In this document: piece by piece, positions 36,178-45,451 of the stretch
Layout of the letters: every line of letters begins with the position of its first letter
Numbering within the stretch: the stretch's first letter is position 1
The notes under the pieces: generated by a model
Databases searched by the model: none
The model's input: the letters and a program-made list of their open reading frames with translations, nothing else
Told to the model about the DNA's origin: nothing
From: Pseudofrankia inefficax
GTDB taxonomy: Bacteria > Actinomycetota > Actinomycetes > Frankiales > Frankiaceae
DNA length: 64,000 nucleotides
Assembly (NCBI RefSeq): GCF_000166135.1
Contig: NC_014666.1
Span: 2,852,001-2,916,000, forward strand
Direction of reading: 5' to 3'
Made by a program: the position numbers and the translations under genes

Positions 36178-36912
36178 CTACAACGCTCGGGCGGGCCGGC
36201 CGAAACGGGCGGCCATCGCGCCACGGCGGTGCCGTGGGCTGGGCGGCGGCAGCTCCTTGCCGAGCACCGCGTAGGGGGTGTAGCTGCCCGGGAAACGGAA
36301 GTTCGACAGCAACGGGACGAAACCCTCGCTGGCGTAGAGCCGGCGGGCCCGGCTGTCCGGCAGCTCCAGCGCGGACAGCGCCGCGGTGCGGTAGGGCACG
36401 TCGCGCAGCAGCTCCCGCAGCAGCTCCCGGCCGATGCCCTGGCCCTGGTACTCCGGCAGGACGTGCAGCTCGACGATCTCGAGGCAGTCCTCCAGCCAGT
36501 GCACCGACGCGGCGGGGGACAGCGCGGTGGCCACCACGTCATGCCACCACTGACCCTGCCTGCCCGGCATCGCGTAGGTGACGCCGACCAGGGTGTCGTC
36601 GGAGGTCAGCGCGGCGACCGCGCGCAGGTCGCGCCGTTCCGTGTGCCGGCGGGCGTGCGTCATCCGGTCGCGGGCGGCGCGGACCGGATCCGCCTCGTGC
36701 ACATCCAGGAAGGCCGCCTTGTAGACGGCGATCACCTCACCGAGGCGGGCACGCATCCGGGCGGGCGTCCAGCGCACCAGCCTGATGTCGGCACTCGCCA
36801 AGGCCTGCCTCGCAGTGAGTGGACGGGCGGTCGGGAGGTTGACGATAACCCGGCACTCTCGCCCCGTGCCCGGTGACCGAGTAACTGTCTCAAACGGGAC
36901 ACGGTGTGTCAT
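36178..36912 (-). CDS. GNAT-family N-acetyltransferase
   Basis: A 244-residue protein with the GNAT fold: VVELHVLPEYQGQGIGRELL contains the acetyl-CoA pyrophosphate loop (QGQGIG), followed by ALSALELPDSRARRLYASEGFVPL with the usual C-terminal tyrosine region. The substrate is unknown. Its ATG overlaps the stop of the CrtA-like gene (ATGA), so the two are translationally coupled, but there is no direct evidence that it modifies carotenoids. The first 40 residues are not typical of the family, so an internal start is possible. Confidence 0.83.
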   Translation of the reverse strand: MTHRVPFETVTRSPGTGRECRVIVNLPTARPLTARQALASADIRLVRWTPARMRARLGEVIAVYKAAFLDVHEADPVRAARDRMTHARRHTERRDLRAVAALTSDDTLVGVTYAMPGRQGQWWHDVVATALSPAASVHWLEDCLEIVELHVLPEYQGQGIGRELLRELLRDVPYRTAALSALELPDSRARRLYASEGFVPLLSNFRFPGSYTPYAVLGKELPPPSPRHRRGAMAARFGRPARAL

Positions 36913-38015
36913 CGCGCCGTCGTGGAACCGTCAGGACGCAGCGGATCCCGGCCGTCGACGGTGCCATGGCCGGCGAGGACCGCGAACCGGGCGAACAGCT
37001 CCTCGGCGTACCAACCGACCTGCCCGGTCCGGCGGACGACGGCGGCGTGCGCCGGGCGCCGGTAGGCGAACGCACGGACGGCGGCGAGGCTCGGCCAGAC
37101 GCTGAACGTGCCCTGCAGCCCGATCGGCGCCTCCCCGATCCCGATCGCGAGCGTCGGTGCCACCGGGCCGTGCGGCTCGTCGGGGGAGGCGGCCAGGGCC
37201 GCGAGATCGGCGGCGACCGGAGGCGCGGCCCGCCAGAAGCTGACCGCGTGCCGGGGCGCGAGCCGGGCCCTGGTCAGCACCGCCACCAACCCTGGCGCCA
37301 CCGGTTCCCGGGTTGGGGGCGCTGTGCCAGCTGTCCCGCCGGCCGCGGATTCGCTGCCTTTCAGGTCCGGGACCGCCGCCAGGTCCGGGACCGCCGCCAG
37401 GTCCGGGACCGCCGCCAGGTCCGGGACCGCGGCCAGGTCCGGGGTCGCTGCCAGGCCCGGGGCCAAGGCCGGCCCGCCTGCGTGATCGCCGTTTGTGCCC
37501 TCCAGTGGTTGCGGAACGGCCGTGAGCGCGACCACTGGAGGGCCGAAGTCGCGATCATGGATGGCGGGTTGGCCCGAGGCCGCAGGGGTCCCGGCTGGAG
37601 GGTTCCCCGCCGGTGGGGGGCCGAAGGGCTCGCGGCCGGACCAGCGGCCACGCCAGGCGAGCGGGCACAGCTCGACGTGGAAGTGCTCGTCGGCGATCCG
37701 CCCCCAGGACCGGGCGACCGGAGAGCCCCCGAACGCCTCGGCGGCGGCCGGGCTGTCCCAGACCGCGACCAGCCCCCAGCGGCGCGGCTCGGCGTCCCGC
37801 GGAGCGAAGGCCCCGGGGGTGCCGGTGCCGACCAGCCTGGCGAACGTGAGCCCGTCCGCGCGGCGCAGCCGTGCCCGGTCCAGGGCCATCCGGCCGAGCG
37901 CCCCGCCGATCCGCCGGGTGGGTACCCGCCACAGGTCGACGGTCACCAGCGGCCGCCCGGTGGCGCTCGGCGGCCAGCCGAGCGGCCCTCCCGGCGACGT
38001 CTTCTCCCACGACAT
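36909..38015 (-). CDS. Spheroidene monooxygenase-like acyclic carotenoid ketolase (CrtA-like) with inserted repeat linker
   Basis: The two halves of a CrtA-type protein are present: residues about 1-115 (VTVDLWRVPTRRIGGALGRM; WGLVAVWDSPAAAEAF) and about 245-355 (RHAVSFWRAAPPVA; IGIGEAPIGLQGTFSVW; RRTGQVGWYAEELFARF). CrtA inserts a keto group at C-2 of acyclic carotenoids. Between them lies an extra region holding a 75-bp palindromic element (residues about 153-177) and an 18-bp tandem repeat encoding AAVPDL units (about 182-217), so the protein is 368 residues rather than the usual 230-250. GGAGGAGG precedes ATG 38015. Activity despite the insertion is unproven. Confidence 0.8.
   Translation of the reverse strand: MSWEKTSPGGPLGWPPSATGRPLVTVDLWRVPTRRIGGALGRMALDRARLRRADGLTFARLVGTGTPGAFAPRDAEPRRWGLVAVWDSPAAAEAFGGSPVARSWGRIADEHFHVELCPLAWRGRWSGREPFGPPPAGNPPAGTPAASGQPAIHDRDFGPPVVALTAVPQPLEGTNGDHAGGPALAPGLAATPDLAAVPDLAAVPDLAAVPDLAAVPDLKGSESAAGGTAGTAPPTREPVAPGLVAVLTRARLAPRHAVSFWRAAPPVAADLAALAASPDEPHGPVAPTLAIGIGEAPIGLQGTFSVWPSLAAVRAFAYRRPAHAAVVRRTGQVGWYAEELFARFAVLAGHGTVDGRDPLRPDGSTTAR
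37363..37470. repeat. 18-bp tandem repeat (six units) within the CrtA-like gene
   Basis: AGGTCCGGGACCGCCGCC is repeated at 37363, 37381 and 37399, then with increasing divergence at 37417, 37435 and 37453. In the gene it encodes consecutive AAVPDL-like hexapeptides. The period is a multiple of three, so copy-number changes keep the frame. Confidence 0.9.
37483..37557. repeat. 75-bp palindromic element, copy A (in frame inside the CrtA-like gene)
   Basis: The element runs TGATCG...CGATCA with long imperfect arms: a left arm containing CCCTCCAGTGGT and a right arm containing ACCACTGGAGGG around a variable centre. It is exactly 75 bp (25 codons) and is translated in the CrtA-like protein as RDFGPPVVALTAVPQPLEG with a few flanking residues. 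Copy B at 41575-41649 has the same length and about 57 of 75 identical positions by hand alignment, with differences concentrated in the loop and near one end. Confidence 0.85.
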
Positions 38016-38052
38016 TGACGCCTCCTCCCGGCCGGGCTACCGTCATCCTTGT

Positions 38053-38068
38053 TCGAACTTGTGTTCGA
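38053..38068. promoter_or_regulatory. LexA (SOS) box TCGAAC-TTGT-GTTCGA
   Basis: This is an exact match to the actinobacterial LexA operator pattern TCGAAC-N4-GTTCGA, and the perfect inverted repeat extends to 38049-38072 (TTGTTCGAAC/GTTCGAACAA). It lies 38 bp upstream of the CrtA-like start (-) and about 160 bp upstream of the HEPN-imuA'-imuB-dnaE2 operon (+), in a divergent promoter region. Confidence 0.92.
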
Positions 38069-38077
38069 ACAAAGTGT

Positions 38078-38122
38078 CGTTCGGACCAACACCGCTCGAA
38101 CCAACATCGTTCGGACCAACAC
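38078..38122. repeat. 15-bp tandem repeats between the LexA box and the mutasome operon
   Basis: CGTTCGGACCAACAC (38078-38092), CGCTCGAACCAACAT (38093-38107) and CGTTCGGACCAACAC (38108-38122) are adjacent; shorter degenerate units beginning CGTTC follow at 38123, 38140 and 38154. Each unit contains a GTTCG/CTCGAAC element resembling half a LexA site. Confidence 0.75.
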
Positions 38123-38229
38123 CGTTCGACACGCGACGTCGTTCCAGCAACATCGTTCAGCACCATGCCGGGCGGGCCGGCGACCGCACCTGGCGACCAG
38201 CCGGCGCGGTGGACCTCGGGAGGGTGGAG

Positions 38230-38829
38230 ATGACCAGCCAGCCAACACGGCACCAGCAGTCGTCCGTGCCACAGCAGGCCGGGCGTCCGCCCGTGTGCCC
38301 GCAGCCCGCCCTGCATCCCGTCCGGCCTCGGCCCCCGCAGTCTGCCAACGGGGTACGACAGGTCGCGTCGGCCGACCAGCGGGCCATGGTCCCGGCGGCC
38401 GGGATGCCGCGGCGTTCCCGGGACGATCTGCTCGCGGCGGCCCGGCACGGACTGGCCGAGGCGGCCTTCGCCCACCCGGCGGGGGAGCGGTACGCGCTCG
38501 CGCACCTGGCCGCGCTGCGGGTGGCCGCGGCGGTGCTGGCGGCCCGGGCCAGGCCGCGGCCGGGCCGGCGTGGCCGGCCGGTGAGCGCCTGGCGGCTGCT
38601 GGCCCAGGTCACCCCGGAGCTCGGCGAGTGGGCCGACTTCTTCGCCGCGGGCGCGCCCCGGCGCGCCGCGGCCGAGGCCGGGCTGTCCGTCGTGTCCATC
38701 CGCGAGGCCGACGACCTCGTCCGGCAGGTGGAGATCTTCCTCGGGGTGGTCGAGGAGGTCCTGGGCCTGCCGTCTCAGCCGGCGCTCATCGGGGCGGCGG
38801 CGCCGGTGGCGCGTTCCGGGACGGACTAG
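38230..38829 (+). CDS. SAV_6107-like HEPN-domain protein
   Basis: A 199-residue protein: a Pro/Gln-rich N-terminus of about 70 residues, then an all-helical domain. The HEPN signature R-x4-H is visible as R87-YALA-H92 (GERYALAHLAALR), with further helices (VSAWRLLAQVTPELGEWADFFAAG; IREADDLVRQVEIFLGVVEEVL). HEPN domains are often RNases or substrate-binding modules; the SAV_6107 group is actinobacterial. It is first in the operon after the LexA box and precedes imuA', so a role in SOS-induced mutagenesis is inferred. ATG 38230 sits behind GGAGGGTGGAG. Confidence 0.78.
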   Translation: MTSQPTRHQQSSVPQQAGRPPVCPQPALHPVRPRPPQSANGVRQVASADQRAMVPAAGMPRRSRDDLLAAARHGLAEAAFAHPAGERYALAHLAALRVAAAVLAARARPRPGRRGRPVSAWRLLAQVTPELGEWADFFAAGAPRRAAAEAGLSVVSIREADDLVRQVEIFLGVVEEVLGLPSQPALIGAAAPVARSGTD

Positions 38830-38831
38830 CC

Positions 38832-39875
38832 GTGCACCCGGTCCGCGCCCGCGGCTTCCCGAAGTCCCGTGACGCCCACACCCGTGACATCCACACCCGT
38901 GACGCCCACACCCGTGACATCCACACCCGTGACGCCCACACCCGTGACATCCAGCCCCGTCACATCCAGGCCCGTGACGCCCATCCGGTGGGGCGGCCGC
39001 CCGGCCGCCCGGAGCCGGTGCTGGCCGCGCTGCGGGACCTGCGGGAGCTGCGGGACCTGCGAGAGATCACCCACGGCGGGCCGGCCGACCCGCCTGATCT
39101 CGGTGACCCTGACCGGCTGCTGCCGGTGCCGGCGGCACTGGCCGGGCTGCTGCCCCGACGGGCGCTGGCACGGGGGACGACGGTGGCCGTCGAGGGGTCG
39201 GCCGCGCTGCTGCTCGCCGTGCTCGCCGAGCCGTCCCGGGCCGGGGCGTGGTGCGCGGTGGTCGGCTGCCCGGCGCTCGGCCTGCTCGCCGCGGCCGAGG
39301 CCGGGATCGCGCTGGACCGGCTGGTCCTGGTACCCGAGCCGGGCCCGCGCTGGCCCGTGGTCACCGCGGCCCTGATCGACGCCCTGGACGTGGTGGCGGT
39401 CCGCCCGCCGGCGGGAGAGCGGACGGCCGGCTCGGCCCGACGGCTCGCGGCCCGTGCCCGTGAGCGGGGCTGCCTGCTGCTCCCGGTCGGTGCCGGCTGG
39501 GAGGGCGCGGAACTGCGCCTGACCGCGGCGGAACGGTCCTTCCACGGCCTCGGCCAGGGGCACGGGCACCTGCGCGGGGCCCGGCTGCTGGTCCAGGTGT
39601 CCGGCCGGGGCGCGGCCAGCCGGACCCGCCACGGCTGGCTCACCGTCGCCGGCCCCGACCCCGTCGTCGAGCTCGACACCACCTCCGGCCTGAGCCCCGC
39701 CACCGGAGGCCCCGCCTTCGGACTGGACGGCGTCATCGCCCAGAGCCGGGCGGCTGGCCTGGAAGGGGCTGGCGCGGTCGCCGGGCTGGACGGCACCGCC
39801 GGGCCGCGCCCGGCCGCCGAGCCGGCGGCCGGCGTGGCGCGAGAGCTGCACGTCGTCGTCGAGGGGGCCGCGTAG
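38832..39875 (+). CDS. ImuA'-like RecA-related mutasome protein
   Basis: A protein of about 347 residues between HEPN and imuB. After a repetitive N-terminus (DAHTRDIHTR units, residues about 12-51) comes a RecA-like ATPase-type core lacking a canonical Walker A (TTVAVEGSAALLLAVLAEPS; WCAVVGCPALGLLAAAEAGIALDRLVLV), and a C-terminal RecA-like strand region (RGARLLVQVSGRGAASRTRHGWLTV). This matches ImuA', a cofactor for ImuB and DnaE2 in mycobacteria. The GTG at 38832 is 2 bp after the preceding stop; a clear ribosome-binding site is missing, so the start is uncertain. Confidence 0.8.
   Translation: MHPVRARGFPKSRDAHTRDIHTRDAHTRDIHTRDAHTRDIQPRHIQARDAHPVGRPPGRPEPVLAALRDLRELRDLREITHGGPADPPDLGDPDRLLPVPAALAGLLPRRALARGTTVAVEGSAALLLAVLAEPSRAGAWCAVVGCPALGLLAAAEAGIALDRLVLVPEPGPRWPVVTAALIDALDVVAVRPPAGERTAGSARRLAARARERGCLLLPVGAGWEGAELRLTAAERSFHGLGQGHGHLRGARLLVQVSGRGAASRTRHGWLTVAGPDPVVELDTTSGLSPATGGPAFGLDGVIAQSRAAGLEGAGAVAGLDGTAGPRPAAEPAAGVARELHVVVEGAA
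38866..38985 (+). repeat. 15-bp tandem repeat, eight units, in the imuA' 5' coding region
   Basis: Units alternate CCCGTGACGCCCACA and CCCGTGACATCCACA from 38866, six times very regularly, then two degenerate units to 38985. The encoded peptide is a repeat of RDAHT/RDIHT. The alternation makes a 30-bp higher-order period, suggesting past duplication of a 30-bp block. Confidence 0.92.
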
Positions 39876-39877
39876 TC

Positions 39878-41491
39878 ATGCCCGTGCGGATGCTGGCTGT
39901 GCACTGCCCGGACTGGCCGACGCTGGCCGCCGGGATCGGCCCCGAGGTGCCCGCCGCCGTGATCGAGGCGAACCGGGTGGTGAGCGTGACCGCTGCCGCC
40001 CGCGCCGCCGGGGTGCTGCCCGGGCTGCGCCGGCGCGACGCCCAGGGGCGCTGCCCGCGGCTGCGGCTGCTGGCGGCCGATCCCGATCGGGACGCCCGGG
40101 TGTTCGAGCCGGTGGTGGCCGCGGTCGAGACCGTCGTGCCCGGCGCCGAGGTGACCCGGCCGGGCGACTGCCTGGTGCCGGTCCGCGGCGCGGCCCGCTA
40201 CTTCGGCGCGGAGGCCCTCGTGGTCGCCCAGATCCGTGGCGCGGTGGCCGCCGTCGCGGGCGACTGCCGGATCGGGATCGCCGACGGGCCGTTCGCCGCG
40301 GGGCTGGCCGGCCGGCTCGGTGAGACGGTGCCCGCCGGGGCCAGCGCCGGCTTCCTCGCCGGGCTGCCGGTGGAGCTGGTCGACCGGCCGGAGCTCGCCG
40401 GGCTGCTGCGCCGGCTGGGGCTGCCCACCCTGGGCGCGTTCGCCGCGCTGCCGGCGGCCCAGGTGCTCGACCGGTTCGGCCCGGACGGGGCGCTCGTCCA
40501 CCGGCTGGCCAGGGGCGACGACGAACGGCTGCCGGAGCCCCGGGCCGTCCCCCCGGACCTGACCGTCGACACCCGCCTCGACCCGCCGGCCGACACCGTC
40601 GAGCAGGTCGTCTTCACCGCGCGCCGCCTCGCCGAGGACTGCCACGCGAAGCTGCTGGCCGCTGGCCTGGCCTGCGCCCGGGTCGCGATCGAGGCCGAGA
40701 CCGAGAACGGGGAACGGCTGCGCCGGGTCTGGCGGCACGACGGCCCGCTGACCGCCGCCGCGATCACCGACCGGATCCGGTGGCAGCTCGACGGCTGGCT
40801 GTCCGCCGCGGCCCTGGCGTCGGAGGCCAGCCGGGCCGCCCCGCCCGGGACCGGCTATGGGCCCGGGTTGGCTGGGCCTGGGTCGGCTGGGGCCGGGCAC
40901 GGGCCGACGGCGGGCGTGACGTGGATCCGGGTGGTTCCGGAGGACCTGCTGGCCGCCGACGGCCGCCAGTTGGGGCTGTGGGGTGAGCCGGGCGCGGCCG
41001 ACGGCCGGGTGCGCCGGGCTCTCGACCGGGTCCAGGGCCTGCTCGGGCCGGAGGCGGTCCTGACCGCCGAGGTGCGCGGCGGGCGTGACCCCGCCACGGC
41101 GGTCCGGCTGGTGCCGTGGGGCGAGCCCCGCGGGCCGCGCGACGCCCTCGACGCGGACCGGGCCGGCGCCCCCTGGCCCGGGCGGCTGCCCGCGCCCGCG
41201 CCGGCGACCGTGCTCGCCGAACCGCGTCCCGCCCTGCTGCTCGACGCCGCCGGCGAACCGGTCGTCGTCAGCGGCCGGACGGTGGCCACCGGGGCGCCGG
41301 CCTGGCTGGCCGTCGACGGGCGCCCGCCGGTCCGGGTGACCGGCTGGGCTGGTCCCTGGCCGGCCGACGAGCGCTGGTGGGAGCCTTCCGGCCGCCGCCG
41401 CGCCCGTTTCCAGCTGACCACCGAGGACGGCGACGCCCGCCTGCTGTTCGTCGAGGGCGGTCGATGGTGGTGGGAGGCGTCCTACGGCTGA
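39878..41491 (+). CDS. imuB: ImuB, catalytically inactive Y-family polymerase homologue
   Basis: A 537-residue Y-family-like protein acting as the scaffold of the SOS mutasome. The usual catalytic acids are missing: the first motif (normally HVDMDAFF) reads AVHCPDWP and the second (normally S-DEAFLD) reads GDCLVPVRG. The helix-hairpin-helix-like region LRRLGLPTLGAFAALP is retained. Q364-LGL-W368 is the beta-clamp-binding motif that positions DnaE2. ATG 39878 follows GAGGGGG. Known for mycobacteria: ImuA', ImuB and DnaE2 together carry out damage-induced mutagenesis. Confidence 0.93.
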   Translation: MPVRMLAVHCPDWPTLAAGIGPEVPAAVIEANRVVSVTAAARAAGVLPGLRRRDAQGRCPRLRLLAADPDRDARVFEPVVAAVETVVPGAEVTRPGDCLVPVRGAARYFGAEALVVAQIRGAVAAVAGDCRIGIADGPFAAGLAGRLGETVPAGASAGFLAGLPVELVDRPELAGLLRRLGLPTLGAFAALPAAQVLDRFGPDGALVHRLARGDDERLPEPRAVPPDLTVDTRLDPPADTVEQVVFTARRLAEDCHAKLLAAGLACARVAIEAETENGERLRRVWRHDGPLTAAAITDRIRWQLDGWLSAAALASEASRAAPPGTGYGPGLAGPGSAGAGHGPTAGVTWIRVVPEDLLAADGRQLGLWGEPGAADGRVRRALDRVQGLLGPEAVLTAEVRGGRDPATAVRLVPWGEPRGPRDALDADRAGAPWPGRLPAPAPATVLAEPRPALLLDAAGEPVVVSGRTVATGAPAWLAVDGRPPVRVTGWAGPWPADERWWEPSGRRRARFQLTTEDGDARLLFVEGGRWWWEASYG

Positions 41492-41761
41492 GCCGAGCGT
41501 GGTCGGGCCGGTCGGTGTGAGGACCGGCCCGGTGCCGGACCCGGCCTGGTTCGCCCCGTCTCGCATTCGCGCATGATCGCCGTTTGCGCCCTGCGGTGGT
41601 TGCGATCGAGCCCGGAATGCAACCACGGGAGGGCCGAAACGACGATCACTCAGGCCAGGCCGGGTCGACGTTGGGGCAGCGGCACTAGATGTGGTGACCA
41701 AGTACGCCGTGGCAGCGCGCGGCGGTGCCTGCCGGGGCGGCCCGGCGTCTGGGGGATAGGC
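41492..41761. other. imuB-dnaE2 intergenic region with palindromic element
   Basis: This 270-bp gap is dominated by the 75-bp palindromic element at 41575-41649. The open frame runs upstream from dnaE2 through it, but homologues begin at the SWWNPAVSWAELERRMSG region, so I treat it as non-coding. Confidence 0.6.
41575..41649. repeat. 75-bp palindromic element, copy B (between imuB and dnaE2)
   Basis: Same length and ends (TGATCG...CGATCA) as copy A. Arms: GGTGGTTGC pairs with GCAACCACG-type sequence, and ATCGCCGTTTGCGCCC with the complement of GGGCCGAAACGACGAT, with mismatches. As mRNA it would form a strong hairpin ahead of dnaE2. Confidence 0.85.
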
Positions 41762-44700
41762 GTGAGCTGGTGGAACCCGGCCGTTTCGTGGGCGGAGCTG
41801 GAGCGGCGGATGTCCGGGCGCCCACCCCAGCCGGGCGGGCAGGGCGGCCCGGAGGGGGATGGCGGGGACGCGCCCGCGTGGTCGAGGCACCGGGAGCCCT
41901 ACCGGCCGGCCCCCGAACTGGTCGCCGCCGCGGCCGCGGCCCGCGCCGAGGGGGCGCCCGGCGTTGACGGCGCGGCCAGGCCGGCCCCGGCGGCGGCCCC
42001 GTACGCCGAGCTGCACTGCCACTCGGCGTTCAGCTTCCTCGACGGGGCCAGCCAGCCGGAGGACCTGGTCGAGGAGGCTGCCCGGCTCGGGCTGTCGGCG
42101 CTCGCGCTGACCGACCACGACGGCATGTACGGGGTGGTCCGGTTCGCGGAGGCAGCCGAGCAGGTGGGCCTGCGGACGCTCTACGGGGTGGAGGTCTCCC
42201 TGGCCCCGGGCCCGGACCGGCCCGTGCCGGGGCCGGACACGGGGGAACCCCGTCCGGGCCCGCGTCGGCCGGGGCCGCCCGGGGAGGCACCGGCCCCGCG
42301 CCCGGGGGTGCCCGACCCGGTCGGGGACCACCTGCTCGTGCTGGCCCGGACTCCGGAGGGGTACCGCCGGCTGTCGCGGGCGGTGTCCGACGCGCACCTG
42401 GCCGGCGGGGAGAAGGGCCGCCCGCTGACCAGCCTGGACGTGCTCGCCGCGGCGGCTGGCGACGGACACTGGCAGATCCTGACCGGCTGCCGCAAGGGGC
42501 TGGTGCCCGCCGCGCTGGCCGCCGGCGGCCTCGACGCGGCCCGGGTCGCCCTCGACGGGCTGGTCGGCCGGTTCGGCCGGGACAACGTCGCCGTCGAGCT
42601 GTGGGACCACGCGCACCCGCTCGACTCGGACCGCAACGACGCCCTCTACGGCCTCGCCCAGGAGGCCGGGCTGACCTGCGTCGCCACCAACAACGTCCAC
42701 TACGCCACGCCGTCGGCCGGTCGGCTCGCCGCGGTGATGGCCTCGATCCGGGCCCGCCGGTCGCTCGACGAGATGGACGGCCACCTGCCACCGGCCGGCG
42801 CCGCGCACCTGCGTTCCGGCGCCGAGATGACCGACCGGTTCGCCCGGTATCCGGGCGCGGTGGAGGCGGCGGCACGGGTCGGGACCGAGAGCGCCTTCAA
42901 CCTGCGGCTCGTCGCCCCGAGGCTGCCGGACTTCCCGGTGCCGCCCGGGCACACCGAGGCCAGCTGGCTGCGGCTGCTGACCATGCAGGGCGCGGCCCGC
43001 CGGTACGGGCCGCCGGTACGGGAGCGGGTCGGCGGCGCCTACGACCAGCTCGCCCATGAGCTCACCCTGATCGAGTCGCTCGGCTTCCCCGGCTACTTCC
43101 TGATCGTCCACGACATCGTCGAGTTCTGCCGCCGGGAGGACATCCTCTGCCAGGGCCGCGGCTCGGCGGCGAACTCGGCGGTCTGCTACGCGCTGGGCAT
43201 CACCGGCGTCGACGCGGTCTCCTTCGGCCTGCTGTTCGAGCGGTTCCTCGCCCCGGAGCGGGACGGGCCACCCGACATCGACCTGGACATCGAGTCCGGC
43301 CGCCGCGAGGAGGTCATCCAGTACGTCTACGGCCGCTACGGGCGGGACCGGGCCGCCCAGGTGGCCAACGTCATCAGCTACCGGTCCCGCTCGGCGGTGC
43401 GCGACGTCGCCCGCGCCCTCGGTTTCTCCCCCGGCCAACAGGACGCCTGGTCCTCCGGCATAGACCGCTGGTCCCCACTACCCGCCGCCGCGCCGCCCGC
43501 CCCGCCGGCGGCCGTCCCGGCCGTGCCCGCCGCGGTGACGCCCGGGCCGGGCCAGGCCGTGGAACCGGCCGACCGGATCGGCACAGCGATTCCGGTCGAG
43601 GTGGTGGGGCTCGCGGGCCAGTTGCTTGGGTTTCCGCGTCATCTGGGCATTCACTCGGGCGGGATGGTGATCTGCGACCGGCCGGTGGCCGAGGTGGTGC
43701 CGGTGGAGTGGGCCCGGATGCCGGGGCGGACCGTCATCCAGTGGGACAAGGACGACTGCGCCGTCGCCGGGCTGGTCAAGTTCGACCTGCTCGGCCTCGG
43801 GATGCTGGGCGCCCTGCACCTCGCGTTCGCCCTGATCCGGGACCACCACGGGCGTCACCTGGACCTGGGGGAGATCCCGCCGGAGGACCCGGCCGTCTAC
43901 GACATGCTCTGCGCCGCGGACTCGATCGGCGTCTTCCAGGTGGAGAGCCGGGCTCAGATGGCGACCCTGCCCCGGCTGCGGCCACGCCGGTTCTACGACC
44001 TGGTCGTCGAGGTGGCGCTGATCCGGCCCGGGCCGATCCAGGGCGGCTCGGTGCATCCGTACATCCGGCGCCGCAACGACCTCGAGGAGGTCACCTACCC
44101 GCACCCGCTGCTGGAGCGCTCGCTGAAGAAGACCCTCGGCATACCGCTCTTCCAGGAGCAGCTCATGCAGATGGCGATCGACGTCGCCGGGTTCACCGCG
44201 GCCGAGGCGGACCAGCTGCGCCGGGCGATGGGCGCCAAGCGGGCGACCGAACGGATCGACCGGCTGCGCGAGCGGTTCTACCAGGGCATGGCCACCAACG
44301 GGATCACCGGCGCGGCGGCCGACGAGCTGTACACGAAGCTCGCCGCGTTCGCGAACTTCGGCTTCCCGGAGAGCCACTCGGTCAGCTTCGCGTTCCTCGT
44401 CTACGCCAGCGCCTGGATCAAGCTGTACTACCCGGCGGCGTTCTGCGCGGCGCTGCTCAACGCCCAGCCGATGGGCTTCTACTCCCCGCAGAGCCTGGTC
44501 GCCGATGCCCGCCGGCATGGCGTCACCGTGCACGGCCCCGACCTGAACGCCTCCGGCGCGGGCGCGATCCTGACCGGCGAGGGGCGGCCCGCCGGGCTGG
44601 CCGAGCCGGTGTGGGACGGGGAGCCGGCCGGTGAGCCGGTCGGGGACGTGCCGGCTCCTGCCCGGATCGGGGTCGGGGCCGCGGCCGGCCAGGCCCCGCC

Positions 44701-45451
44701 GAACGGGGAAGCAGACGGCTTGACGGGGCCGCGGCATCCGGCGGTCCGGCTGGGCCTGGCCGGGGTCCGCCTGATCGGGACGGCGAACGCGGAGCGGATC
44801 GTGGCCGCGCGCGACGTAGGCGGGCCGTACCGGGACATGGCGGATCTGGCGCGCCGGACCGGCCTGGCCGCGGCCCAGCTGGAGGCGCTGGCCACCGCCG
44901 GGGCGTTCGGCTGCTTCGGCCTGGCCCGCCGGGAGGCGCTGTGGGCTGCCGGCGCCGCGGCCCAGGCGAGGCCCGACCGGCTGGAGGGGACGGCGCTGGT
45001 CGGGGATCCGGCGGCGGTCGCGGCGCACCTGCCCGGCATGTCCGGCGCGGAGGAGATCGTCGCCGACCTGTGGGCGACCGGGATCACCCCGAGCCGCTAC
45101 CCGACCGAGTTCGTCCGGGACCGGCTGGACGCGCTCGGCGTGGTGGTCGCCACCCGGCTGGCGCGGCTCCCGGGTGACCGGCGGGTGGTCGTCGCCGGCG
45201 TCGTCACCCACCGGCAGCGCCCGGCGACGGCTGGTGGGACCACCTTCCTCAACCTGGAGGACGAGACTGGCCTGGTGAACGTGATCTGCTCCCGGGGAGT
45301 CTGGGTCCGTCACCGTGTGGTGGCCACCTCCGCGCCCGCGCTGATCGTCCGCGGCCGGCTGGAGAAGGCCGACGGCGTGGTGAACGTGATCGCCGAGCGC
45401 CTCGAGCGCCTCCCGCTCGCCGTGGCCCGCCGCTCCCGGGACTTCCGGTGA
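41762..45451 (+). CDS. dnaE2: Error-prone DNA polymerase DnaE2
   Basis: A 1229-residue C-family polymerase, the catalytic member of the SOS mutasome. PHP domain: AELHCHSAFSFLDGASQPEDL, LALTDHDGMYGVV, LYGVEVSLAPG. Polymerase core: CQGRGSAANSAVCYALGIT, the catalytic PDIDLDIESGRREEV, HSGGMVICDRP, and the tHhH and OB parts (FLNLEDETGLVNVICS) near the C-terminus. The GTG at 41762 gives SWWNPAVSWAELERRM, matching the usual DnaE2 N-terminus. Two low-complexity Pro/Ala/Gly stretches (near residues 150-180 and 580-600) are inserted. Confidence 0.95.
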   Translation: MSWWNPAVSWAELERRMSGRPPQPGGQGGPEGDGGDAPAWSRHREPYRPAPELVAAAAAARAEGAPGVDGAARPAPAAAPYAELHCHSAFSFLDGASQPEDLVEEAARLGLSALALTDHDGMYGVVRFAEAAEQVGLRTLYGVEVSLAPGPDRPVPGPDTGEPRPGPRRPGPPGEAPAPRPGVPDPVGDHLLVLARTPEGYRRLSRAVSDAHLAGGEKGRPLTSLDVLAAAAGDGHWQILTGCRKGLVPAALAAGGLDAARVALDGLVGRFGRDNVAVELWDHAHPLDSDRNDALYGLAQEAGLTCVATNNVHYATPSAGRLAAVMASIRARRSLDEMDGHLPPAGAAHLRSGAEMTDRFARYPGAVEAAARVGTESAFNLRLVAPRLPDFPVPPGHTEASWLRLLTMQGAARRYGPPVRERVGGAYDQLAHELTLIESLGFPGYFLIVHDIVEFCRREDILCQGRGSAANSAVCYALGITGVDAVSFGLLFERFLAPERDGPPDIDLDIESGRREEVIQYVYGRYGRDRAAQVANVISYRSRSAVRDVARALGFSPGQQDAWSSGIDRWSPLPAAAPPAPPAAVPAVPAAVTPGPGQAVEPADRIGTAIPVEVVGLAGQLLGFPRHLGIHSGGMVICDRPVAEVVPVEWARMPGRTVIQWDKDDCAVAGLVKFDLLGLGMLGALHLAFALIRDHHGRHLDLGEIPPEDPAVYDMLCAADSIGVFQVESRAQMATLPRLRPRRFYDLVVEVALIRPGPIQGGSVHPYIRRRNDLEEVTYPHPLLERSLKKTLGIPLFQEQLMQMAIDVAGFTAAEADQLRRAMGAKRATERIDRLRERFYQGMATNGITGAAADELYTKLAAFANFGFPESHSVSFAFLVYASAWIKLYYPAAFCAALLNAQPMGFYSPQSLVADARRHGVTVHGPDLNASGAGAILTGEGRPAGLAEPVWDGEPAGEPVGDVPAPARIGVGAAAGQAPPNGEADGLTGPRHPAVRLGLAGVRLIGTANAERIVAARDVGGPYRDMADLARRTGLAAAQLEALATAGAFGCFGLARREALWAAGAAAQARPDRLEGTALVGDPAAVAAHLPGMSGAEEIVADLWATGITPSRYPTEFVRDRLDALGVVVATRLARLPGDRRVVVAGVVTHRQRPATAGGTTFLNLEDETGLVNVICSRGVWVRHRVVATSAPALIVRGRLEKADGVVNVIAERLERLPLAVARRSRDFR

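Follow-up and report, generated by a model that had tools for sequence, protein, structure and literature searches.

Why should one 75-bp palindrome occur twice within a few kilobases of an actinobacterial genome, once in frame inside a gene and once between two genes? The locus lies in a 64,000-nt window of Pseudofrankia inefficax (the window being the whole stretch of DNA that was analyzed, to which our coordinates refer). An earlier note on this DNA had reported one palindrome, copy A, within a gene for a CrtA-like protein and another, copy B, between imuB and dnaE2, and had proposed a family of small mobile elements that can enter coding sequence. Our results indicate that the two copies most probably belong to an old, genus-wide family of miniature inverted-repeat transposable elements (MITEs), 150–160 bp long, of the IS630/Tc1-mariner type and with CTAG as the target.

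Both palindromes are real, and their positions relative to the three genes proved correct. Copy A lies exactly where it had been placed, whereas copy B occupies 41574–41648 rather than 41575–41649 (Table 1). The two copies form an ungapped direct repeat (76% over 78 nt), and the similarity between them reaches outward past the 75 bp, a feature absent from the earlier note. Their RNA folding energies are –50.7 kcal/mol for copy A and –44.6 kcal/mol for copy B (the latter folded at the coordinates that are one base off), with z scores of –7.9 and –5.9; none of 200 shuffles folded as well as copy A or B. Searches against Rfam gave no match for either copy, up to E = 1.

In the complete genome of P. 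inefficax (8,815,781 bp, hereafter the source genome), the pattern TGATCG-N55-75-CGATCA had 301 forward matches, compared to 1 for a reversed-pattern control that understates the chance level because it contains CTAG, which is rare in this genome. By eye, 53 of the 92 plus-strand matches listed (first 3.0 Mb) belong to the palindrome family, the others being coding sequence or members of a second palindrome family described below, and a contiguous 334-kb stretch holds 11 copies. Extrapolation from these two samples gives ~155 and ~290 copies, respectively, and we estimate the total at 150–300. A BLAST search with copy A returned 45 rows at E < 1e-6, some sites being counted on both strands. 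The core was exactly 75 bp long in 203 of 209 arm-scored copies, many of which had been fetched with 75-bp-type patterns and some of which recur.

A covariance model built from 34 copies was run on 35 genomes of the family Frankiaceae, with both strands counted, and matched 10 of them, including all eight in the genus. The number of rows per genus genome ranged from 4 to at least 138, the genome with 4 rows having a best E of 1e-4; outside the genus, 2 of 27 family genomes matched weakly, with two matches each (E ~1e-3). An exact pattern was also run across 84,980 species, a collection that may omit records very near the source genome; it returned 105 stretches, and among the matches listed (80) all came from Frankia sp. 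AgB1.9 or F. nepalensis CN7. The relatives most used below are G033, which is either AgB1.9 or a twin of it (100% identity to AgB1.9 over 172 nt), and G031, which we take to be Frankia sp. DC12. The genome and its relatives, searched along the lines that the earlier note had suggested, hold far more than two copies and reveal a genus-wide family; the copy number in the source genome bears out the idea that small palindromic elements form a large family here.

The 75 bp had been regarded as the mobile unit, and this needs revision. Whole units are ~150–160 bp long and consist of the 75-bp palindromic core between arms of ~35 and ~43 nt, with the ends CTAGTGCCGC...GCGGCACTAG; a typical unit reads CTAGTGCCGCGACCGCCAAGGTCTGCCCGTCGCCT – 75 bp – TGGGGACGCCGGAACGGGCGAACCTTGCCGGAGGCGGCACTAG. 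Arm ends resembling GCGGCACTAG peak at offsets of 25 and 33–34 nt outward from the core, and ends within 2 mismatches occur in 113 of 472 flanks, compared to 59 in shuffled flanks. The arm pattern has 29 matches in the source genome versus 1 for the control; paired arms lie ~150 bp from each other and enclose the core, and the arms are CTAG-ended at a fixed distance from the core. The unit is short, contains no transposase gene, and has terminal inverted repeats in the form of its inverted CTAGTGCCGC arms.

Mobility itself is supported by two clean insertion polymorphisms. At L065:2430, AgB1.9 carries a specific 182-nt block where both the source genome and DC12 have a single CTAG; at L334:4561, the source genome carries a 145-nt block where AgB1.9 has a single CTAG. 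At these CTAG targets, duplication of TA and duplication of CTAG are indistinguishable. When 73 AgB1.9 copies (61 loci) were compared with their source-genome orthologues, 45 were shared, 21 absent, 6 unclear and 1 partial; the reverse comparison of 62 source-genome copies gave 43 shared, 4 absent, 5 unclear, 4 partial and 6 without an orthologue. Between the source genome and DC12, the intergenic flanks at single sites were mostly unalignable.

A plausible mechanism is that an IS630/Tc1-mariner-type transposase, acting in trans, would move the unit by cut-and-paste. The unit would enter the TA within CTAG, with duplication of TA, and since CTAG can hold a TAG stop, some insertions would leave a gene's stop intact, which would partly explain the abundance of copies just after genes. 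Both the transposase family and the trans-mobilization are suggested by sequence comparison. Congeners carry DDE_3 elements with CTAG-bounded inverted ends, among them a 1.27-kb insertion sequence (IS) of the IS630/Tc1-mariner type in congener G029 (L368:1290-2563) with DDE_3 plus helix-turn-helix domains. Its ends, CTAGTGCGCTGTCCACGAAGGTTGGCC and CTAGTGCGCTGACCACGAACGTT, are inverted and CTAG-bounded, and beyond CTAG they partially match the alpha arm of the palindromic unit (16/25 and 15/25; shuffle p = 5e-5 and 1e-3, uncorrected for the 36 CTAG-anchored end comparisons made over 6 ISs). Two other DDE_3 ISs gave 8–12/25 against the same arm. We also observed at least three near-identical IS630-type copies with CTAG-bounded ends (L364, L367 and L369, in G031, DC12); a transposase of this kind may be active in the genus, because the DC12 copies are 99.8–99.9% identical. 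The palindromic copies in the source genome are presumably immobile relics.

Several observations weigh against an IS630-type MITE. The source genome gave no match to DDE_3, DDE_5 or Y1_Tnp (PF01797), the only three transposase families searched (as a positive control, PF01797 matched 5 of 14 control genomes), and no IS with exactly the unit's ends was found. Of the 236 copies examined for placement (below), 43 have recognizable arms on both sides and 73 on a single side, and 120 have none that can be recognized. One of the two flanking CTAG copies has decayed at both filled sites, L065 and L334, and these two are the only sites with clean junctions, most absent sites differing over longer, messy stretches. 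Conservation is higher in the core than in the neighboring 40 nt, whereas a simple MITE would show the opposite pattern. Finally, DDE_5 (IS701-like) elements of the genus end in CTAG and have TGATC ~20 nt inside, like the core ends.

Because of this last resemblance, IS701 stays a rival: as a MITE, the unit could instead depend on an IS701-like (DDE_5) transposase and duplicate a 4-bp CTAG target, which we consider unlikely. Six of the seven genus genomes searched have DDE_5 matches, and the DDE_5 ends at L305, L309 and L310 read CTAG (one CTAA) ... GTGATC, as in CTAGTACTACAGCCCCAGTGATCGCCG, so that CTAG and the TGATCG(CCG) of the core are common to both. The arms, however, fit the IS630 type better. 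CTAG-anchored DDE_5 ends match the arms at 6–12/25 (9–12/25 against the alpha arm for three DDE_5 ISs; the best end, 12/25, has p = 0.01), compared to the values given above for L368, and DDE_5 flanks scanned with one 23-nt arm consensus showed at least 7 mismatches. Moreover, TGATCG lies 31–39 nt inside CTAG in the palindromic unit, as opposed to ~14 in the DDE_5 ends, and the source genome is devoid of DDE_5 matches.

Genomic placement was assessed on 236 distinct copies (89 from the source genome and 147 from relatives, the DC12 copy A being left out), with gene calls from a codon-usage script. Entry into coding sequence is not a habit of the family, contrary to what had been proposed: just 2 of the 236 copies fall inside predicted genes, and both are copy A (in the source genome and in AgB1.9), that is, one orthologous insertion. 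Leaving out 14 locus-edge copies, 1 that overlaps a gene end and the 2 genic ones, we counted 99 copies between convergent, 105 between tandem and 15 between divergent genes, versus 40, 104 and 75 expected for random places in the same loci; in 84 of the 105 tandem pairs, the copy was nearer the upstream stop. TAG accounted for 24/38 stops at 30–32 and 38–41 nt from the core, as against 87/265 elsewhere (p = 5e-4), these distances fitting the arm lengths and having been chosen after the distance histogram was seen. In 23 of 303 cases, compared to 0 in the control, the gene stop itself reads as an arm end, TAGTGCCGC. Copies favor gene 3' ends and avoid gene interiors, and in some cases the TAG stop is itself occupied. 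CTAG targeting would account for part of this preference for 3' ends, and loss of deleterious insertions probably for the remainder.

Copy A is the one genic site. It reads in frame as HDRDFGPPVVALTAVPQPLEGTNGDH in a minus-strand open reading frame (ORF) that scores 140 bits against the NCBIfam equivalog, below the cut-off of 300 bits, and that has no Pfam match. Among seven CrtA-like orthologues compared (G034 was left out), the 25-codon segment is present in three, those of the source genome, G033 and G031, and absent from four (G028, G029, G030 and G032), in which the linker is shorter or nearly lacking; as the earlier note had anticipated, a gene that carries a copy has element-free orthologues. 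The sequence beside copy A matches the alpha arm at 27/35 positions in AgB1.9 and 26/35 in DC12, compared to 18/35 in the source genome, where the right arm is not recognizable. Copy A inserted long ago into a variable linker, where it has been tolerated. In the source genome, this linker has also been lengthened by a run of 18-bp tandem repeats (37362-37464 of the window) encoding AVPDLA-like repeats, and no such run occurs in G033 or G031.

The earlier note had further supposed that the fold is under selection, and our tests gave no sign of this. In 34 copies that had exact ends and a length of exactly 75 bp, paired columns showed covariation no greater than that of shuffles. Across 33 gapless orthologous pairs, single changes kept the pairing at 47 of 126 paired columns (0.373, versus 0.349 expected from the mutation spectrum, in a test symmetric between the source genome and AgB1.9, with neither taken as the ancestor). 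What the palindrome represents is a symmetric consensus rather than a fold maintained by compensatory changes. A structured RNA element was rejected on the basis of the missing covariation and pairing constraint and of the absence of an Rfam family on the copies.

Sequence change in the core was examined in the 33 gapless orthologous pairs, out of 45 distinct ones that are shared, and it is uneven. Substitutions numbered 8/396 at the core ends, 9/330 in GCCCT/AGGGC, 5/132 in GG/CC (positions 25, 26, 50 and 51) and 80/495 in the loop, meaning that the core ends and GCCC/GG blocks change 4–8 times less than the loop, and ~4 times less at positions free of search bias. Since the AgB1.9 loci had been found by the exact core pattern, positions in that pattern were tested against half the loop rate; the core ends and GCCCT were still low (p = 2e-7 and 4e-5), and TTT/AAA (20/198) was as expected with the bias (p = 0.30). 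For GG/CC, which is free of search-pattern bias, p was 8e-5. Positions 27, 29, 47 and 49 had 13/132 changes, and positions 13-14/62-63 were fast (30/132). Divergence amounted to 0.102 of aligned sites in the core versus 0.147 in the flanks within 40 nt, the flanks having many gaps. This unevenness could stem from purifying selection on a DNA-binding site, from conversion among copies or from a mutational effect. It is conceivable, if somewhat doubtful, that the core is a sequence-specific module under purifying selection after insertion, for instance a putative host-protein binding site at gene 3' ends.

The slow change of the core ends and blocks between orthologues, together with the strong hairpin, the 3'-end bias and the depletion between divergent genes, would also suit a REP/BIME-like or terminator-like DNA element at gene 3' ends that the host maintains and that has spread passively. 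Such an element would be compatible with a MITE origin, but we hold this explanation to be improbable, given that neither covariation nor pairing constraint was detected, that no Y1 transposase was found in the source genome, and that the 3' bias derives in part from CTAG/TAG targeting and promoter avoidance.

A second palindrome family shares the format of the core. Apart from the family of copies A and B, 34 palindromes were found by the ends [TA]GATCG...CGATC[AT], which were part of the search pattern. Of these, 16 have in common a different core motif (such as GTATGGA) and measure 75–77 bp; nine of the 16 end exactly in TGATCG...CGATCA. Most second-family cores sit between other arms, CGCCGATTTCCATACC...GGTATGGAAATCGGCG, and two arm systems share one core format. 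We also noticed a second MITE-like element of ~290 bp, with ends near ACCCTGCTGGCC...GGCCAGCAGGGT, which carries its own 75-bp palindrome and shows ~8-bp target duplications by eye. It has inserted into 75-bp palindromes at L156:5252-5617 and L091:5502-5874 (AgB1.9), and its matches number 8 in the source genome, 15 in G033, 2 in G031 and 0 in G030.

At three pairs of orthologous sites (L083 and L344, L097 and L350, L128 and L362), the difference is approximately the core alone, with one GATC left, probably because the hairpin was deleted between the two GATC copies that bound the core. That the 75-bp palindrome is an independent mobile unit entering GATC sites, including the center of a separate CTAG-bounded MITE, would agree with these sites, with the half of the copies that show no arms and with the ~75-bp cores and similar ends (themselves in the search pattern) of the second family, but it is very unlikely, as deletion explains the core-less sites equally well (an interior core deletion was observed in DC12), no arm pairs at core-less spacing were seen by eye among the arm matches listed, and both clean insertions are at CTAG, not GATC.

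Table 1. Positions of the palindromic copies and related features (window coordinates unless a locus is named)
Feature	Position	Strand	Remarks
CrtA-like gene	36909..38015	-	copy A in variable linker
Copy A, decayed left (alpha-type) arm	37448..37482	.	18/35 alpha-arm matches; last 21 nt 15/21
Copy A, core	37483..37557	.	75-bp palindrome TGATCG...CGATCA, in frame in CrtA-like gene
imuB-like gene	39878..41491	+	IMS domain; upstream of copy B
Copy B, full unit	41529..41688	.	160 bp, CCGGTGCCGG (decayed CTAGTGCCGC) to GCGGCACTAG
Copy B, left arm	41529..41573	.	
Copy B, core	41574..41648	.	75-bp palindrome, coordinates corrected
Copy B, right arm	41649..41688	.	ends GCGGCACTAG
dnaE2 (error-prone polymerase)	41762..45451	+	start from codon-usage gene-calling script
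Second palindromic family	L197:5728, L249:5380, L338:4520 and others		similar core ends, ~75 bp, different cores and arms

Around copy B, the dnaE2 ORF is readable from an ATG at 41573 through the palindrome, with similarity only from residue 141 of that reading. An automatic start at 41573, at the edge of copy B, would probably be a mis-annotation, because similarity begins ~420 nt downstream. In the AgB1.9 orthologue of copy B (L158:3350), GCAGCGGCACTAGAT is tandemly duplicated at the arm end. Upstream, 15-bp tandem repeats like CCCGTGACATCCACA occur at 38866-38983 of the window, near the start of an imuA'-like gene.

The kind of element is already known. In the part of PMC2229807 that deals with it, RUP (repeat unit of pneumococcus) is a non-autonomous 107-bp repeat with 108 intergenic copies, and an IS630-type transposase inserting into TA is proposed as its mover, since RUP ends match those of an IS630. 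Our palindromic unit would be its kin in kind, a non-autonomous IS630-type MITE. It differs from RUP in its length (~150–160 bp), its strongly conserved 75-bp palindromic core, its CTAG target and its host, and in that the source genome has no IS630-type match; the likeness considered here is one of description. According to the relevant passage of PMC2170065, TA is the target of IS630-family elements and is duplicated when they insert; PMC2170065 also cites a paper by Tenzen and Ohtsubo whose title specifies TA in 5'-CTAG-3'. The unit resembles IS630/ISY100 in its probable TA target duplication, CTAG preference, inverted ends and the DDE_3 transposase of its likely partner L368, but carries no transposase gene. 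Correia/NEMIS, portrayed in the corresponding lines of PMC2229807 as a bacterial MITE with TA at its ends, one form of which can fuse to reading frames, is again compared by description, and lives in another host.

The comparison with the Rickettsia palindromic element (RPE), mentioned in PMC2229807 as reported in 19 reading frames, is likewise descriptive. Both are palindromic and repeated, with one case here in frame in a protein; however, with one genic insertion site among 236 copies, RPE-like entry into genes was not borne out, and frequent in-frame insertion was not seen. REP/REPIN sequences are high-copy, extragenic and palindromic as well, and a passage of PMC1525189 presents them as targets for other mobile elements. 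The unit differs from REP/REPIN and RAYT in being CTAG-bounded, and a RAYT/REP identity was rejected, as Y1_Tnp had 0 matches in the source genome. No palindromic MITE family of this sort was described in the titles and abstract beginnings listed in searches of open-license papers. The survey of Frankia ISs in PMC2770080, which counts IS630 transposases in other Frankia strains, returned no hit in a term search for palindrom-, MITE, miniature or CTAG.

The family of copies A and B seems to be restricted to a single actinobacterial genus and to represent an IS630-type MITE family not described before. It shows how, in a GC-rich genome, an element that targets CTAG can come to rest on TAG stops without disrupting the gene. 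What is unusual is that the core has changed little after landing, and the unevenness of that change raises the question of whether the host uses these sites. If it does, a selfish MITE would have seeded hundreds of functional sites across the genus, and versions of one core module would be present in two MITE families that differ in their arms.

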